From Flavihumibacter fluvii (GTDB taxonomy: Bacteria; Bacteroidota; Bacteroidia; Chitinophagales; Chitinophagaceae), in contig NZ_CP092333.1 of the NCBI RefSeq assembly GCF_018595675.2, positions 1,636,001 through 1,700,000 on the forward strand: 64,000 nucleotides of DNA, written 5' to 3'. This document shows positions 1-20,029 of the stretch, piece after piece. The stretch's first letter is position 1, and the number at the start of each line of letters is the position of its first letter. The notes beneath the pieces are model-generated. The model was not told the origin of the DNA, did no database searches, and saw only the letters and a list, made by a program, of their open reading frames with translations. A program made the translations under genes and the position numbers.

Positions 1-169
1 GCGAATCGTTAATCCCGCTCATAAGTCATTTTACCTGATGCCACACAGACTGCGGATAGATTTCCTTGAACCCATCGAGGTAGGTGAAAACGATACTGTT
101 GAAAGCCTGAAGGAGAAGGTGTTTGTGGTGATGTGGGAGCATTATGTGGCGGTGAACGGTAAACAGTGA
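1..169 (+). CDS. PlsC-like acyltransferase, C-terminal end (partial)
   Basis: The window opens inside this gene. Frame 2 reads 55 residues to the TGA at 167-169. The segment RLRIDFLEPI followed by an acidic stretch and ESLKEKVFVVMWEHY resembles the C-terminus of 1-acyl-sn-glycerol-3-phosphate acyltransferases, which acylate lysophosphatidate at the inner membrane. The catalytic HX4D box would lie upstream and outside the window, so the family call rests on the tail alone. The last residues (VNGKQ) and the stop codon are encoded by a heptamer array (151-185), so the original C-terminus was probably changed when the array arose. Moderately sure of the family, sure that it is a real coding end. 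Confidence 0.55.
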   Translation, partial: RIVNPAHKSFYLMPHRLRIDFLEPIEVGENDTVESLKEKVFVVMWEHYVAVNGKQ

Positions 170-185
170 ACGGTAAACGGTGAAT
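151..185 (+). repeat. Heptamer array, left arm of locus A
   Basis: Five consecutive 7-bp units of the GGTRAAC family. With a=GGTGAAC, b=GGTAAAC and c=AGTGAAC the order is a-b-c-b, then a decayed GGTGAAT. The reverse-complement counterpart is at 622-649 and a four-helix-bundle gene lies between. The array contains the stop codon of the upstream acyltransferase fragment. Positions 151-180 are identical to the reverse complement of 11782-11811. Confidence 0.9.
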
Positions 186-196
186 TGTAACCATAG

Positions 197-565
197 TCAA
201 CGCATATAAGATTCAATTTTTACCTTTTTCAATAATCCATGCAATAATCTTGAAATCCTTTCAAGCTTATTGGACAAATCAATAAGCGTTGCTTCGTCAA
301 AATATCCTATGGATTGTGAAATCATCAACAAAGTATCTAACTCACTTAATGAGCCCATGGAAATGGTCAGAAAATGATGAAATTCCTTTTTTGATTGCCT
401 GCCAGCTCCTTCAGAAATATTTGCCGGAATAGAAACTGCCGCCCTTCGGATTTGAGAAATTATGCCAAACTTTTCTGATGAAGGAAATTGTGCAGTTAGG
501 ATATAAAGTTCCTTAACCAATAGAAAGCTCACCTTCCATACTTCCAGATTTTGATGCGGTTTCAT
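197..565 (-). CDS. Four-helix-bundle protein (23S rRNA IVS / Avd-like)
   Basis: 122 residues from the ATG at 565. The open frame runs further upstream to a GTG inside the heptamer array, but the family normally starts with MKPHxNLxVWK, as here. Family hallmarks are the VWKVSFLLVKELY helix, SQIRRAAVSIPANISEGAGR near residues 43-62, and GSLSELDTLL near 75-85. This is the four-helix-bundle family found in 23S rRNA intervening sequences. Avd of diversity-generating retroelements has the same fold and binds nucleic acid. Biochemical function is unknown for most members. The gene is intact and is framed by inverted heptamer arrays ending 12 bp and starting 57 bp away. No reverse transcriptase or rRNA is nearby, so neither the DGR nor the IVS role applies directly. 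Confidence 0.85.
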   Translation of the reverse strand: MKPHQNLEVWKVSFLLVKELYILTAQFPSSEKFGIISQIRRAAVSIPANISEGAGRQSKKEFHHFLTISMGSLSELDTLLMISQSIGYFDEATLIDLSNKLERISRLLHGLLKKVKIESYMR

Positions 566-621
566 TCCCCAATTTACAAAGCAAGAACACCTCAAAAAAG
601 CGTTAATACACGGAATCCACC

Positions 622-649
622 GTTCACCGTTCACCGTTCACCGTTTACC
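622..649 (-). repeat. Heptamer array, right arm of locus A (inverted)
   Basis: Four units read GTTCACC three times and then GTTTACC on the plus strand, the reverse complement of the GGTRAAC family seen at 151-185. Together the two arms bracket the four-helix-bundle gene in a 499-bp unit. The unit fits between the acyltransferase end and the stop codon of lptD at 656-658. Confidence 0.9.
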
Positions 650-655
650 ATCGGC

Positions 656-3352
656 TTACTGCGTATAAAAATACTTACTCCTGTTTATCTTCAAATCCCG
701 CAACATTCCAGATTTCGGATTGATCGTAATGTTGAATGACCTGTACAGGCCAACAGGAGTAATGTTGATACCCAATTGCCAGCAGTGTAATTCGCGGCTA
801 AGGAACATCGTTAGTTGCTGGAGGTTGGAGCCACGGAAATCATAAAAAGTATTGGCACCCACTTTCCATTTGGGCGTAAGGTTGAAATCACCACTCACAT
901 TAATACTGGAGGTGATCCGGGTGGTGAAACCGGAATAGTCTGTTTTGGGGGTTGTGGAAAAACTTAAGGAATAGGAAAGATTTACAGACCAGGGAATATT
1001 AAAATCGGCAAATTCAGCCGGATTATTACGTACGTAATCGAGCTGCGCCTGCTGCTCTTCCAATGTCATCGGCAACTGCCCGTTATTCGTCAGGTATTCC
1101 TGGGTGGCTGAGGCCTCCTCTTTCTTATCTGATTTTTTGCTCCTGAATGAGGTAGAGATAGCAATATTGCCGGTAACGATCTTTCCCAATTTGAATTTGT
1201 CATGTTCCCATACAAATTCATTTATAGGATAACCATATTGATCCGTTTTATAGGGATTCAGCACGCCACCGGCTGTAATATTCACTTTCTCAAATAATGT
1301 ACTCCGGATATACAGGGAGATTGGTTCCAGTTTCATGGAATCTTTCAGGAAATTATAACTGGTCGACAATCCAAATCCATCCAAAAGCCGCACTTTCTTA
1401 AGGCCACCATCCGTTACCGTATCCGTTTTGGATTTCACCTTCATCTCAAGGTTATTATCCAGGTTGAAACTCATTCCGCCAAATTGCCCTTCCCCATAGG
1501 CGCCATATAGACTGCCCGCATATTTACTGGCGCGGAGGGTCCGCCCGTTTTTATCCACCTGGGTCGTATAGTAGTCTTTGCTGTTCAAATCGGGTTTATA
1601 ACTGGCGGATATGGATGGCCGGACCACATGCCGGATAGCCCTGACCTTGCTATTGGGACCGAATTTGTTGAACAGCCCAAAAATTGCCGTGTTAAGCCCG
1701 ATATTAAAGGAGATATCCCTTGCTGTAAAAAAACCTTTATTGTAAAATGAATCCACTTTTTCGGTAGTTGGATTCCAGGCCCGGGTAAACTGCTTGCCGT
1801 ACCATTTTTCTGAATAAGAAAATCCGGGGGCTACCTGGATCGGTCCCAAAGAAGGTAATGCCAGGGTTATCGGGATATTGTGCTGAGCACCCCACTGCAT
1901 GGTATCGAGTAAGGTGTTGAATGAAACAGTCGTATCATTAAAGGCCACCTGGTTCCTGAATTGGGTATTCAGGCCAATGCCCAGCTTCTCATACCATTTG
2001 GGTTCACCCACAAACTCCTTTTGTTGAAAGGGGTAAAAATTATTCACGGTAAAGGAACCATCTGGCAGCCGAACATGGAATTCCCGGGAAACACTATTCT
2101 GGTCGTGGCCTGCACTCAGGCTCAGGTTGTATTTATTGCTCCAGTTCTTGGTGTAGGTAATGGAGGAGTACAACTGGTTATTAAAATTGACAGAAGGATT
2201 CTGCGAGTTGTACTGGTTATACTGACTGGAACCCGCATTCACACTGGCCTGGAATGAAGTCCCCGGCCGCGCCTTGGCATCCACCATATGGCTCCACTGG
2301 ATATTGAAACTTTTGCTCGTTTCGTATTCCTTTTTGGGATCATTACTCAACATGCGAGTATGCTGGTAAGCCAGGTTCATCCGGCCAGAGTACCGGTACC
2401 GTTTTCGGTAGGTGGGTGTAAGGGTGGCCCGCCAGCCACCGTAGGAATAAATATCACCCCGCACCATCATATCAAACATATCGTTGAGCACTTTATAATA
2501 ACCCAGGCCTTCCAATCCCAATCCAAATTGTTCATTGGCCGTAAACTGCGGGGGTAAAATGCCCGAATGCCGTCCCTGTGCTAAGGGAAAGAACCCAAAG
2601 GGTAAATAAATGGGTACGGGAACACCTTCAAATTCTGCATGGAGCGGACCACTCACAGCCAATTTTTTATTCACCAGTTTCATTTTCTTGGTGCGGAAAG
2701 CAAAGTGTGGTGTATCGAGGTTGCAGGTGGTGAAGCGCCCCTTATAGGCAAAGAAATCGGTGAGGTTGATTTTTTTGATCCGTTCACCATACACATACAT
2801 TTCACCCTGTTGGGTAAACGTGCTTTTGGTGATTCCCTTTTGTGTTTTAAAATTATAGGTGATGGAATCCGCATCCATATTACTTTCCCCCTGCACAAAA
2901 TGGGGCTTGCCGACCTGCCTGCCCAATGTATCCAGTGTATAGGTGGCCACCACCATCTGGGTGGGCTGGTCCAGCTCTATCTTATATGCCGTGAGGTCGA
3001 GGTCCTGGTATTTGGTGGTCGCAGTATTGTAAAGTGTGATTTTTTTGGTGGTCATATCCAGCACCATGGAATCAGAAGCGGAATAAGCAACCGGACCATC
3101 CAATGAATCTTTTGAAACTTTAACATTTAAGGTATCGGTCCTTTGGTAGGTCCGGATTGTTGTATCTGTGGGCTTTACTGGTATGGTATCTGCGCGAATA
3201 GGGATTGTATCAGCCTGAACAGTTGTTAACTGCTTGTAAAAAAAGGGCGAATCGTAATAATTCGCTGAAGATAAGAGCGTTAAAGTGCAAAGGAGCAGCG
3301 TAAAAAGCCCAATCGAACTGTATTTTAAACTAAATTTGCCGCCGTGATTCAT
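656..3352 (-). CDS. lptD: LptD-like LPS assembly outer-membrane protein
   Basis: About 898 residues if started at the ATG at 3352, which gives a clean signal peptide (SIGLFTLLLCTLTLLSS). The frame stays open to 3418, but that start overlaps the divergent amidase and adds no export signal. The N-terminal third has the LptA/OstA-like jellyroll (MYVYGERIKKINLTDFFAYKG). It is followed by the region with PHFAFRTKKMKL and the proline-rich VPVPIYLPFGFFPL seen in LptD proteins, then a long aromatic beta-barrel. LptD inserts lipopolysaccharide in the outer leaflet of the outer membrane together with LptE. It sits next to MCE and OstA-like genes that are also concerned with lipid transport. Convergent with the heptamer-flanked element. 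Confidence 0.8.
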   Translation of the reverse strand: MNHGGKFSLKYSSIGLFTLLLCTLTLLSSANYYDSPFFYKQLTTVQADTIPIRADTIPVKPTDTTIRTYQRTDTLNVKVSKDSLDGPVAYSASDSMVLDMTTKKITLYNTATTKYQDLDLTAYKIELDQPTQMVVATYTLDTLGRQVGKPHFVQGESNMDADSITYNFKTQKGITKSTFTQQGEMYVYGERIKKINLTDFFAYKGRFTTCNLDTPHFAFRTKKMKLVNKKLAVSGPLHAEFEGVPVPIYLPFGFFPLAQGRHSGILPPQFTANEQFGLGLEGLGYYKVLNDMFDMMVRGDIYSYGGWRATLTPTYRKRYRYSGRMNLAYQHTRMLSNDPKKEYETSKSFNIQWSHMVDAKARPGTSFQASVNAGSSQYNQYNSQNPSVNFNNQLYSSITYTKNWSNKYNLSLSAGHDQNSVSREFHVRLPDGSFTVNNFYPFQQKEFVGEPKWYEKLGIGLNTQFRNQVAFNDTTVSFNTLLDTMQWGAQHNIPITLALPSLGPIQVAPGFSYSEKWYGKQFTRAWNPTTEKVDSFYNKGFFTARDISFNIGLNTAIFGLFNKFGPNSKVRAIRHVVRPSISASYKPDLNSKDYYTTQVDKNGRTLRASKYAGSLYGAYGEGQFGGMSFNLDNNLEMKVKSKTDTVTDGGLKKVRLLDGFGLSTSYNFLKDSMKLEPISLYIRSTLFEKVNITAGGVLNPYKTDQYGYPINEFVWEHDKFKLGKIVTGNIAISTSFRSKKSDKKEEASATQEYLTNNGQLPMTLEEQQAQLDYVRNNPAEFADFNIPWSVNLSYSLSFSTTPKTDYSGFTTRITSSINVSGDFNLTPKWKVGANTFYDFRGSNLQQLTMFLSRELHCWQLGINITPVGLYRSFNITINPKSGMLRDLKINRSKYFYTQ

Positions 3353-3367
3353 ATTATTGAATGGGGG

Positions 3368-10366: not shown

Positions 10367-10378
10367 GGGAAGAATGTT

Positions 10379-10418
10379 AGGTCAATAGGTGAATAGGTGA
10401 ATAGGTGAATAAGTCAAT
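10379..10418 (+). repeat. Octamer array, left arm of locus C
   Basis: Five consecutive 8-bp units: AGGTCAAT, three exact AGGTGAAT, then AAGTCAAT. The inverted partner is at 10474-10505. The spacer (10419-10473) holds a small palindrome (AAAGAT-AA-ATCTTT near 10438) and no gene. Same head-to-head design as the heptamer loci but with a unit one base longer. Confidence 0.9.
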
Positions 10419-10473
10419 GAAAATCAGTATTAGAGGGAAAGATAAATCTTTTCAGGAATTCATCCATTCCCCC

Positions 10474-10505
10474 ATTCACCTATTCACCTATTCACTTATT
10501 GCCTA
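10474..10505 (-). repeat. Octamer array, right arm of locus C (inverted)
   Basis: Units read ATTCACCT, ATTCACCT, ATTCACTT and a decayed ATTGCCTA on the plus strand, the reverse complement of 10379-10418. The arm runs into the candidate ychF -7 box (10504-10511), so the array lies where the -33 element of ychF would be. Confidence 0.85.
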
Positions 10506-10553: not shown

Positions 10554-11654
10554 ATGGGATTACAAGCAGGGATCGTAGGGTTACCGAATGTGGGCAAATC
10601 AACCTTATTCAATGCAGTGAGCATCAGCGCAAAGGCGCAGGCCAGCAATTACCGGTTCTGTACGATTGAACCAAACGTTGGACTGGTTGATGTTCCCGAT
10701 CCCCGGATCGATAAACTGGCCGAACTGGTGAAGCCTAACCGTACCGTACCCACGCAGATCGAGATCGTGGATATTGCCGGACTCGTAAAGGGTGCCAGCA
10801 AGGGCGAAGGGCTGGGCAATAAATTCCTGGCTAATATCCGGGAAGTGGATGCCATTGTACATGTGATCCGTTGTTTCGAGGACGAGAACATTTTACGTGA
10901 TGAAGGTCCCATCAACCCGGTGAACGATAAAGGCATCATTGACACCGAGCTGCAATTGAAAGACCTTGATAGCGTAGAAAAGAAATTACAGCGTACCGAG
11001 AAACTACTCCGCACCGGTGATGCCAAAGTAAAAGCAGAGTATGAAGTGCTGAAGGCATGTTATGACCACCTGGAAGCCGGGCGAAATATCCGTGAACTGA
11101 ACCTCAGCAAGGAAGACCGATCAGCTATTGCTGACCTTTTCCTGCTCACCGAAAAACCGGTGCTGTATGTGGCCAATGTGGATGAACCATCCATGCACAC
11201 CGGCAATAAATTCTCTGAGGCATTAAAAGCAGCTGTAGCCGCTGAAGGCGCAGAAGTGATCGTGATGAACAATACCATCGAACAACAAATCGCAGAGCTG
11301 GAAGATCCTGATGATCGTGCGTTGTTCATGGAAGAGTACAAAATGACTGAGCCTGCGCTGAATAAACTCATCCGCGCAGCTTACGAATTATTGAAGCTGC
11401 AAACCTATTTCACAGCCGGTGTGCAGGAAGTGCGTGCCTGGACGATCCACGAGGGCTGGAAAGCGCCACAGGCCGCCAGTGTGATCCATACCGATTTTGA
11501 GAAAGGATTCATTAAGGCCGAAGTAATCAGCTACAATGATTTTGTTCAATATGGTTCTGAGTCTGCCTGCCGTGAAGTCGGCAAACTTCGGATCGAAGGA
11601 AAGGAATATGTAGTGAAGGATGGGGACGTGATGCATTTCAGGTTTAATGTGTAG
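10554..11654 (+). CDS. ychF: Redox-regulated ATPase YchF (Obg family)
   Basis: 366 residues from the ATG at 10554. The longer frame from 10509 adds sequence not found in the family and starts over the promoter box. P-loop [14 protein letters not shown] at residues 8-21, switch region [20 protein letters not shown], and a C-terminal TGS domain ending [17 protein letters not shown]. YchF/OLA1 proteins prefer ATP over GTP and bind ribosomes; they take part in translation and oxidative-stress responses. Length matches the family (363-366). The gene ends 3 bp before heptamer locus D, which carries its terminator. Confidence 0.95.
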
Positions 11655-11657
11655 AAT

Positions 11658-11685
11658 GGTAAACGGAGAACGGTAAACAGTGAAC
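11658..11685 (+). repeat. Heptamer array, left arm of locus D
   Basis: Units in order: GGTAAAC, GGAGAAC, GGTAAAC, AGTGAAC, followed by a decayed GGTGGGT. The array starts 3 bp after the ychF stop. Its inverted partner is at 11784-11811. The AGTGAAC variant sits at the matching position in both arms. Confidence 0.9.
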
Positions 11686-11709
11686 GGTGGGTGCAATTGA
11701 TGTACGAAA

Positions 11710-11759
11710 CCTAATAAAAAAGAAGCTACTGAATATTCAGTAGCTTCTTTTTTATTAGG
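11710..11759. terminator. Perfect 50-bp palindromic bidirectional terminator
   Basis: The sequence 11710-11734 is the exact reverse complement of 11735-11759 (25-bp arms, centre GAATATTC). The stem GAAGCTACTGAATA is flanked by A-run and T-run on the two sides, giving a U-tract for transcripts in either direction. It lies between convergent ychF (plus) and the fasciclin gene (minus) and is nested inside heptamer locus D. Confidence 0.9.
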
Positions 11760-11783
11760 AACCAGGTTTTCAGGAAGCCTCCC

Positions 11784-11811
11784 GTTTACCGTTCACTGTT
11801 TACCGTTCACC
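11784..11811 (-). repeat. Heptamer array, right arm of locus D (inverted)
   Basis: Units read GTTTACC, GTTCACT, GTTTACC, GTTCACC on the plus strand. The reverse complement has the order a-b-c-b and is identical over 30 bp to the left arm of locus A (151-180), 11.6 kb away. Ends 9 bp before the fasciclin stop codon. Confidence 0.9.
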
Positions 11812-15807: not shown

Positions 15808-16737
15808 ATGGCACCAATTCAATTCAGCGGTCAGACCGCATTCTACAAAGGTAAAGTCCGCGATGTCTACACTATCAAAGATCGTTTGCTGGTGATGATC
15901 GCATCAGACCGCATTTCTGCTTTTGATGTTATCCTTCCCGAACCCATTCCTTATAAAGGACAAGTATTAAACCAGATTGCTGCTTTCATGCTGCAGAGTA
16001 CCAGTGATATTTGTCCGAATTGGTTATTATCGGTTCCGGCTCCGAACGTATCAATCGGACAGAAATGTACGCCTTTTAAAATAGAAATGGTTGTGCGTGG
16101 CAACCTTACCGGGCATGCCTGGCGCACCTATAATAGTGGTAAACGGGTATTGTGCGGCGTTCCCCTTCCGGAAGGCATGAAAGAGAACGACTATTTCCCC
16201 GCACCCATCATTACACCATCCACCAAGGCATCTGAGGGTCATGATGAGGACATCTCCAGGGAAGACATTATAGCGAAAGGATTAGCCAGTGCAGCAGACT
16301 GGACCGTCCTTGAAGATTATACACTGAAATTATTTGCGCGTGGCAAAGAGATCGCGGCCAAACAGGGACTGATCCTGGTGGATACCAAATATGAATTTGG
16401 CAAGATCGGTGATACCATTTACCTTATGGATGAAATCCATACGCCCGATTCATCCCGCTATTTTTATGCGGATGGATTTGATGCCCGCCAGTCCGCCGGT
16501 GAAAAACAAAAACAATTGAGTAAGGAGTTCGTACGCGAATGGCTGATCGCCAATAATTTCATGGGTAAGGAAGGACAGACTGTTCCGCACATGAGTGCAG
16601 AATGGATCACGACCATCAGCAACCGCTATATCGAACTATACGAACACGTCATTGGAAAGAAATTCATTCCGGAACGCCTGAGCAATGAGGAAACAGTAAG
16701 GAGAGTGGAAGTTGCACTGGCGGAACTGGAGAAATAG
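15808..16737 (+). CDS. purC: SAICAR synthetase PurC
   Basis: 309 residues. It joins aspartate to CAIR with ATP in purine synthesis. Diagnostic segments are [30 protein letters not shown] near the N-terminus, the [15 protein letters not shown] segment, [12 protein letters not shown] and [18 protein letters not shown]. This is the longer form common in Bacteroidota and eukaryotes (about 300 residues) rather than the 237-residue E. coli form. The stop codon TAG (16735-16737) overlaps the first two bases of heptamer locus E. Other pur genes are not in the window. Confidence 0.95.
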
Positions 16738-16763
16738 TGAACGGTAAACGGTGAACGGTAAAC
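16736..16763 (+). repeat. Heptamer array, left arm of locus E
   Basis: Units AGTGAAC, GGTAAAC, GGTGAAC, GGTAAAC (c-b-a-b), then a decayed GGTACAT. The array begins inside the purC stop codon. The inverted partner is at 16789-16816 with only 25 bp between, so a transcript can fold into a long hairpin with a few mismatches. It could act as a purC terminator stem, although there is no T-run. Confidence 0.9.
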
Positions 16764-16788
16764 GGTACATTGCGACACAAATGCCCCC

Positions 16789-16816
16789 GTTCACCGTTCA
16801 CCGTTCACCGCTCACC
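16789..16816 (-). repeat. Heptamer array, right arm of locus E (inverted)
   Basis: Three exact GTTCACC units followed by GCTCACC on the plus strand, the reverse complement of the GGTRAAC family. Ends 14 bp before the ATG of the ABA4-like gene. Confidence 0.9.
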
Positions 16817-19944: not shown

Positions 19945-20029
19945 CACCTCTTTGCCTCCTCTTTGGGTCCTCTTTGGGTCCTCGGAATGACCTCCGGGGC
20001 CGAGGAGCCAAAGAGGACCCAAAGAGGTG
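19945..20029. repeat. Inverted 11-bp array downstream of tRNA-Leu
   Basis: The left arm (19945-19985) has CCTCTTTG, then CCTCTTTGGGT twice in tandem, then CCTCGG. The right arm (20000-20029) is its reverse complement with one mismatch in the stem. The spacer is 14 bp. The arms can form a stem of about 30 bp. The design copies the heptamer loci with a different unit. The rest of the 300-bp gap between the terminator and the next gene (20143) holds nothing else I can recognise: no integrase and no tRNA fragment. Confidence 0.85.

Follow-up and report, generated by a model that had tools for sequence, protein, structure and literature searches.

What is a single small gene doing between two inverted arrays of heptanucleotide repeats? 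The question arises at the left end of the window, the 64,000-nucleotide stretch of Flavihumibacter fluvii DNA analysed here (G000:C1:1636001-1700000, where G000 denotes this 5.0 Mb genome). A left array of GGTRAAC heptamers occupies positions 150-184 of the plus strand; on the minus strand a right array of GTTYACC heptamers, the reverse complement of the left array, occupies 618-649; and between them, at 197-565 including the stop and also on the minus strand, lies an intact open reading frame of 122 codons counted from its ATG. The left-hand neighbour is by Pfam an acyltransferase ORF (PF01553, 2-169). The left array overlaps its 3' codons, and the final codons and stop of this ORF are encoded by the heptamers. 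On the other side lies lptD (PF19838, 656-3418, minus strand), a junction compared in relatives below. An earlier note on this DNA had described inverted arrays around a complete gene between an acyltransferase gene and lptD, and that description is confirmed at these positions. Because the arrays are inverted, a single strand (RNA or ssDNA) can fold back so that the arrays pair as a long stem and the gene lies in the loop. In an RNA fold of minus strand 140-660 the two arrays pair as a stem (z = -5.65), none of 100 shuffles folding as well as the real RNA, and the ORF is enclosed by complementary, stem-forming ends as in an intervening sequence (IVS) of ribosomal RNA. The long stem would be a candidate substrate for RNase III, the enzyme that excises IVSs from their transcripts.

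The encoded protein matches PF05635, the 23S rRNA intervening-sequence protein (S23p), with E 6.8e-37 and 126.4 bits against a cut-off of 33.8, and TIGR02436 with 118.5 bits against a cut-off of 24. The bAvd model scores 24.5, under its cut-off of 40, and the PHROGs family described as Avd protein of DGR matches at 2.9e-8. No match came from the PADLOC defence library, nor from a viral scan in which the window protein was the sole query. For an AlphaFold2 model of the protein (pLDDT 96.3), the closest solved fold by Foldseek is 2gsc (E 1.5e-8, TM 0.91), next 2rld (5.8e-4), then Avd alone (4dwl, 0.02) and the DGR reverse transcriptase (RT) complex (8ub7, 0.053), with a TM of 0.76 to each of the latter two. 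Profile scores and fold both place the protein in this four-helix-bundle family. We take S23p to be a pentamer, following the literature on 2gsc, and we know of no catalytic motif for the S23p/Avd four-helix fold. The resemblance of PF05635 to Avd is already published, in the accessible text of PMC10053308. Ten positions are invariant in 50 sequences (W10, E31, Q38, S45, N49, I50, E52, G53, S72 and E75), and dN/dS is 0.05-0.15 in five of seven S23p pairs, dS being saturated in the other two, including the pair from G000 and its congener G150. Judged by these substitution rates, S23p is under purifying selection. Some S23p copies in genome G004 (L291, L305, L308/L311) have stops or are split, decayed beside intact copies.

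The S23p family is best known from ribosomal RNA inserts. PF05635 is found in 112 of 147 genomes of Chitinophagaceae, and genes of this family were scored for inverted arms, a score of 11 or more within 180 bp of the gene being counted. That score was reached by 45 of 48 distinct S23p genes in the family, compared with 22 of 355 other ORFs, an enrichment of the kind that the earlier note had proposed to look for in related genomes; a score of at least 14 was reached by 32 of the 48 and by 6 of the 355. Periodicity differs between S23p genes and other ORFs at periods 7 (mean 16.9 vs 8.9), 14 (15.8 vs 8.7) and 8 (10.6 vs 7.9), while at the other periods from 3 to 13 the difference is below 1. 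The 48 genes are mostly the best match of a genome; a locus cut by a contig end (L067), repeated entries for one gene and a broken copy (L090) were omitted. Among plasmids, 22 matched records gave 16 S23p loci, 14 of them cyanobacterial; nine of the 16 reach the score of 11, and several further loci carry sub-threshold heptamers on one or both sides. Two of the cyanobacterial plasmid units lie among CRISPR genes, one (L116) in a type III-B operon between cas10 and a cmr3-family gene, the other (L109) between cas6 and cas4.

A wider scan of genome contigs covered the best 80 of 574 loci, mostly from Bacteroidota with some from other phyla. Three of the 80 lay at contig ends and were excluded; the score of 11 is reached by 54 of the 77 usable loci and by 39 of 916 swapped flanks, and the best period among the 77 is 7 or 14 in 58 and 8 or 15 in 15. 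Both this set and a set of 30 family loci, each the best match in one of 30 genomes, are biased toward clear family members, since only best matches were kept. Sixteen loci from four of the contig-scan genomes, scored without a control and over slightly wider flanks, include 13 with arms; an Azonexus locus (L178/L324) has a GC-rich match that lacks a heptamer period. Pooling the 48 family genes, 13 of the 16 plasmid loci (minus L104, L108 and L118) and 72 of the 80 contig loci (eight being excluded for contig ends, internal stops or shortness) gives 133 S23p loci, with inverted arms at 105 and no detectable arms at 28. Many loci share flanks, so they were clustered by flank. With one locus for each of the 68 flank clusters, 56 of 68 reach a score of 11, compared with 24 of 666 swapped flank pairs, and the best period is 7 or 14 in 52 and 8 or 15 in 11. 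The joint occurrence of S23p genes and inverted arrays is secure.

The arms have a shared architecture. Purines make up more than half of the upstream arm at 92 of the 105 array-bearing loci, and AG/GG exceed CT/CC there at 98. Of 90 testable loci, 35 have arms whose units follow a mirrored order beyond the shared unit itself (p<=0.05 by unit shuffling); a best-register comparison was dropped, being biased by taking the maximum.

Arrays also occur widely apart from the gene. In the 5.0 Mb of G000, GGTRAACGGTRAAC is found at 34 forward and 28 reverse sites, with 0 and 1 for a reversed-pattern control, and the looser RGTRAAY x3 (at most 2 mismatches) at 128 and 106 sites, with 2 and 0 for the control. 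GGTRAAC arrays are therefore present far above chance. The genome has two PF05635 matches, the second of which (L047) lies between inverted GGTGAAT arrays, a further four-helix-bundle gene bracketed in this way. Among the other GGTRAAC sites listed, most have no gene, and the loops between paired arrays mostly range from a few bases to some tens; the GGTRAA-type array comes first in all 17 of the 17 adjacent opposite pairs within 1 kb among the listed sites. A wide inverted GGTRAAC pair at L048 2938-3816 (G000:C1 ~180937-181815) surrounds about 800 bp and encloses a 191-codon ORF that is not S23p-like by sequence and is possibly cargo.

Gene-less inverted pairs with units of 7 or 8 bp also lie in the window itself. 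The pair at 10378-10500 consists of 8-bp units, AGGTGAAT, nearest to the unit of the second S23p element of the genome; the pairs at 11653-11811 and 16737-16816 are of GGTRAAC. By eye, a terminator-like hairpin resembling an intrinsic terminator, rather than a gene, lies inside the inverted arrays at 11653-11811, as it does at L033 ~1989-2132 and L041 ~2034-2194, and the G150 ortholog of window 11653-11811 also retains such a hairpin. Separately, window 19947-20027 holds inverted tandem arrays whose unit, CCTCTTTGGGT ... ACCCAAAGAGG, is 11 bp long; the sampled genome pieces showed no further inverted pair of period 11, and no S23p element with this particular unit was seen.

For a survey of gene-less arrays, genome pieces were taken at round coordinates and searched for a period 7 or 8 array with an inverted mate, the surroundings of S23p genes being excluded. 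None was found in 30 pieces (511 kb) from 11 S23p-free genomes, and none in nine pieces (180 kb) from two genomes with one S23p gene, together 39 pieces and 691 kb from 13 genomes; some of the S23p-free samples are short (G039 only 6.7 kb). S23p-rich genomes gave 22 gene-less inverted arrays, in 13 of 36 pieces (720 kb, 15 genomes). Counted by genome, arrays occur in 5 of the 15 S23p-rich genomes and in 0 of the 13 others (Fisher p 0.044), a modest contrast at this level. One genome with 11 S23p genes (G119) shows no gene-less inverted arrays in its sampled pieces.

The unit of gene-less arrays tends to be that of the S23p elements in the same genome. In three genomes for which all S23p matches were listed, an S23p arm from the same genome outscores foreign arm sets (22 of the 30 loci L053-L082) for 25 of 35 gene-less arrays, the other 10 being unmatched; the matches comprise 9 of 9 arrays in G004, 4 of 4 in the G000 window and 12 of 22 in G055. 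The protein and the unit also vary together, in a comparison that drew on 101 of the 105 array-bearing loci, with flank clusters defined by blastn. A first result, nearest-neighbour unit sharing among close proteins, was inflated, since the flanks were also alike in 15 of 20 pairs. The effect persists, on fewer loci, with one locus per flank cluster: over 57 loci without shared flanks, protein distance and array 4-mer distance correlate with Mantel r 0.123 (39 of 5000 permutations as high), whereas the composition of nearby control DNA gives r 0.039 (1395 of 5000 as high). For the nine nearest-neighbour pairs with at least 60% protein identity, the unit distance is 0.63, vs 0.856 overall (1 of 5000).

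A repeat known from elsewhere was followed in the same way. TAACTGA arrays are known from Beggiatoaceae, Cyanobacteria and Bacteroidetes, and according to the accessible text of PMC4679880 no mechanism of transfer is evident for them. An exact triple repeat of TAACTGA is present in 18 of 395 Bacteroidota genomes searched, and the array adjoins an S23p gene in two of the 18, upstream with a weaker inverted arm downstream in G284 and downstream only in G464. S23p is present in 15 of the 18, which is not evidential, as 112 of 147 family genomes have S23p anyway.

Whether gene and arrays travel together can be read from sites that are filled in one relative and empty in another. In Nostoc plasmids, the unit lies between operon genes g2 and g3 in L112 and between g3 and g4 in L115, and each plasmid lacks the unit at the place where the other carries it, the genes there being separated by a few bases or joined by a stop-start overlap; in L345 and L346 both places are empty, by gene spacing. 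An operon of conjugative plasmids has an insert of 428 bp in Trichormus (L108) and 414 bp in Scytonema (L107), while the insert-free counterpart of the region is 98.1% identical in Nostoc linckia and 97.7% identical in Aulosira. GTAAT flanks this insert on both sides; as a possible target duplication it is seen at this one site, the other sites showing no clear or consistent length. By eye, Nostoc C052 plasmid pC052_E (L343) has an apparent shortened remnant at the conjugative-operon site. Picosynechococcus PCC 7003 has a unit at the junction of cas10 with cmr3, which is empty in PCC 7002 (93% identity). For L105, L344 and the comparison of L115 with L346, the position of the insert was taken from annotated gene spacing rather than from alignment. 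The g1-g2 gap of the Nostoc operon contains gene-less CAGGAGT-type arrays in L344 (~440-690) and L345 (~440-720), and is short in L346; their unit is that of the adjoining S23p element. From the filled and empty plasmid pairs it follows that gene and arrays are gained or lost together. That they are present or absent as one unit is well supported by these sequence comparisons, and the plasmid pairs bear out the suggestion in the earlier note that the arrays are the ends of a small mobile element.

At the lptD junction itself, 15 genomes of the same genus have an lptD match, of which eight could be classed, two were ambiguous (G155, G153) and five unreadable. An S23p gene with arrays is present in two (G000, and G150 with GGTGAAT units), gene-less inverted arrays in two (G147 and G148, by eye), and a spacing of 0-25 bp or overlapping genes in four (G158, G108, G154 and G008, one overlap by eye). 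The gene is thus no constant, array-less companion of lptD: the genus contains junctions that are filled, gene-less or nearly empty. The junctions of gene-less pairs in the window, compared by eye at 10378 (five relatives), 11653 (two) and 16737 (two), often have arrays in the same place but with other units. At the 10378 junction of G150, the left unit differs from the right one; at the 16737 junction the G150 ortholog has RGTGAAT arrays, and G158 has only 19 bp and no array. Orthologous junctions with arrays of differing units indicate that a position can persist while its units are replaced. Simple transposition does not explain this change of units in place across species.

Much of the distribution reflects descent. 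The 101 array-bearing loci fall into 57 flank clusters when joined on any flank similarity, the largest having 14 and 10 members; as many elements are common by descent, jumps look rare. Eight loci (L053, L055, L056, L059, L061, L062, L071 and L082) share one element position, with both flanks alike and TAAGTN-type units, and L070 and L077 are linked to the L053 position by clustering only. In several Chitinophagaceae genomes the TAAGTN-type position thus appears, from its flanks, to represent a long vertical stay.

We consider it very probable, from the sequence comparisons above, that an S23p gene and its two arrays constitute a mobile element; it looks like one because relatives differ in whether a given site holds the whole package. 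The unit would consist of a single S23p gene with an array of 7- or 8-bp repeats on each side, the two arrays being inverted. The S23p pentamer, of Avd fold, would recognise the array unit of its own element on the strand once folded, and enzymes of the host (polymerase, nuclease, recombination) would copy and insert that strand through an intermediate that may be DNA or RNA; no cutting or joining enzyme has been seen for S23p elements. Gene-less arrays would be non-autonomous copies that depend on S23p acting in trans. Slippage of 7 or 8 nt and copying between arms would let the length and the unit of an array drift, and the arms would stay mirrored because of that copying. The parts of this reading differ in strength. 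Recognition of the arrays by S23p is likely, given the matching of units to proteins. The earlier note had the protein act on the arrays or on their RNA, and the own-genome matches (25 of 35) and the Mantel result support some such relation indirectly; the binding and the chemistry of movement we infer. The reading as a whole, in which S23p elements are small mobile hairpins without a recognisable transposase whose Avd-fold protein recognises its own arrays, is the one we favour with some confidence, and the spread of gene-less arrays through S23p in trans is plausible to a slightly lesser degree.

The most serious rival holds that the arrays are binding sites through which S23p, acting on DNA or on the ends of RNAs, regulates its own gene together with a regulon of gene-less sites. 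The arrays are intergenic, some of them surrounding terminator-like hairpins or lying where genes end, and the match between array unit and S23p protein would be expected of a regulator as well. Paired arrays in Geobacter are called predicted global regulator binding sites in the accessible text of PMC2700814, and MacGregor put forward a post-transcriptional form of regulation for which S1, Csp or Csr proteins are the candidates (PMC4679880, in the part available). A regulator would not, however, account for the joint insertion of gene and arrays between genes that in relatives are a few bases apart or overlapping, nor do the neighbours (cas10/cmr3, nrdB/nrdA, lptD, 23S rRNA) have a common function. 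We regard regulation in place of mobility as unlikely, although regulation and mobility could both be true at once. A more passive origin, in which arrays arise by themselves through replication slippage at intergenic hairpins and S23p accumulates in tolerated places, is compatible with the large number of gene-less arrays and with the available text of PMC4679880, in which heptanucleotide repeats are the commonest class in most surveyed genomes and polymerase slippage is proposed. It leaves unexplained the 56 of 68 flank clusters against 24 of 666 controls, the match to the unit of the same genome, the order seen in 17 of 17 pairs, the absence of arrays from S23p-free samples, and the empty sites that are missing gene and arrays together; it is disfavoured, and we hold it improbable.

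Two further rivals supply an enzyme. The S23p RNA hairpin might be copied by a cellular RT, as Avd works with the RT of a DGR, and the Avd fold of S23p (4dwl, 8ub7), the PHROGs match and the two RVT_1 matches in G000 fit such a route. Those two matches lie about 4 kb apart at G000:C1:3805624-3811021, one with an internal stop; at 3.81 Mb, with the window at 1.64-1.70 Mb, they are more than 2 Mb away, and there is no RT beside the window S23p gene. RVT_1 at E<=0.001 is moreover absent from G150 and G027, both of which have S23p elements and arrays, and copying by RT seems as improbable as slippage. REP/RAYT systems have many short intergenic hairpins and one matching gene per genome. A Y1 (tyrosine, HUH) transposase could similarly be supposed to move the hairpins here, with S23p as a passenger; the layout of many intergenic hairpins for a single gene is that of REPs, and G055, G004 and G027 have Y1_Tnp matches. 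Against this, G000, G150 and G141 have no Y1_Tnp match, and G116, with 15, has no inverted arrays in 100 kb. A Y1 transposase as driver is largely refuted for G000, G150 and G141, and for S23p elements at large such a driver is scarcely credible. RVT_1 and Y1 were accordingly set aside as drivers, being missing in some array-bearing genomes and present in others. The unit has no recognisable transposase, the genome has zero Y1_Tnp matches, and RVT_1 lies at the distance given.

If small mobile hairpins recognised by their own S23p are the right reading, three puzzles converge: the function of S23p, the spread of 23S rRNA IVSs, and the origin of heptamer repeats such as STRR. So far these have been described apart, and the literature, in its accessible portions, leaves function or spread open. 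One joint system would predict which S23p pairs with which repeat family in each genome, and laboratory cyanobacteria offer naturally empty sites. Rewriting of arrays in place, if it also happens, would be a new way of editing intergenic DNA. A broader generalisation is more tentative, and we give it somewhat less than an even chance: a transposase-less class found across phyla, in which an Avd-fold protein reads a unit of 7 or 8 bp, host enzymes copy array hairpins to new sites, and existing arrays are rewritten to the element's own unit, with ribosomal IVSs and the STRR and TAACTGA repeats as special or gene-less members.

Comparison with known systems places the window element nearest to four of them. 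Like REP/RAYT, it pairs numerous short intergenic hairpins with one gene; unlike REP/RAYT, its genome has no Y1_Tnp match, its ends are tandem arrays, and its protein is an Avd-fold bundle. With Avd of DGRs it shares the fold, at the TM of 0.76 noted above for both 4dwl and 8ub7, and it differs in having no RT beside the gene and a bAvd score below cut-off; Avd itself sits with an error-prone RT and with template and variable repeats. Like STRR and other heptamer repeats, the arrays here are intergenic tandem heptamers, hairpin-capable and many per genome. Nostoc STRR, Xanthomonas GGGAATC, Beggiatoaceae TAACTGA and the Geobacter hepta- and octamers are described as tandem and largely intergenic (PMC2670836, PMC4692102, PMC2700814, PMC4679880), often as inverted pairs in Xanthomonas and Geobacter (PMC4692102, PMC2700814), and in Xanthomonas as generally unlinked to mobile elements (PMC4692102), which speaks against the mobile reading. 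The accessible text of those four papers offers regulatory or structural roles and never names S23p as a partner. More widely, the open-access literature, including PMC4990558, PMC4679880, PMC4692102, PMC2700814, PMC2670836, PMC8700078, PMC10053308 and PMC10910872 as far as their text is accessible (most subscription papers and bioRxiv lying outside this scope), does not join non-rRNA S23p to heptamer arrays.

The closest likeness is to the 23S rRNA IVS, where an S23p gene likewise sits in a hairpin of complementary ends. That the family occurs inside such inserts, as the earlier note states, is seen directly in L118, on plasmid AZO_p2 of Azospirillum lipoferum, where an S23p-like frame lies within a 23S rRNA gene (Rfam RF02541 spans 277-3357) and the insert is enclosed by inverted heptamers, read as RGGACRG; L118 stands outside the 133 pooled loci and is the only one among the loci examined that is in 23S rRNA. 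The Coxiella IVS is reported to have three GACAGAT heptamers before S23p, in a number that varies among strains, and its authors consider that S23p is probably not made in Coxiella; IVSs with an S23p ORF are named for Coxiella, Leptospira, Xanthomonas and Brucella (PMC4990558, accessible text). The window element differs from these: its neighbours are protein genes, and it is part of families, spread across the genome, of gene-less arrays that share its unit. It is counted as a new kind because a defining feature of each nearest kind tested fails: it is not in rRNA, has no Y1 transposase and has no RT beside it. On a stricter judgement it could be called a variant of the IVS. Seen from the S23p elements at large, the ribosomal IVS looks like one special member among them.
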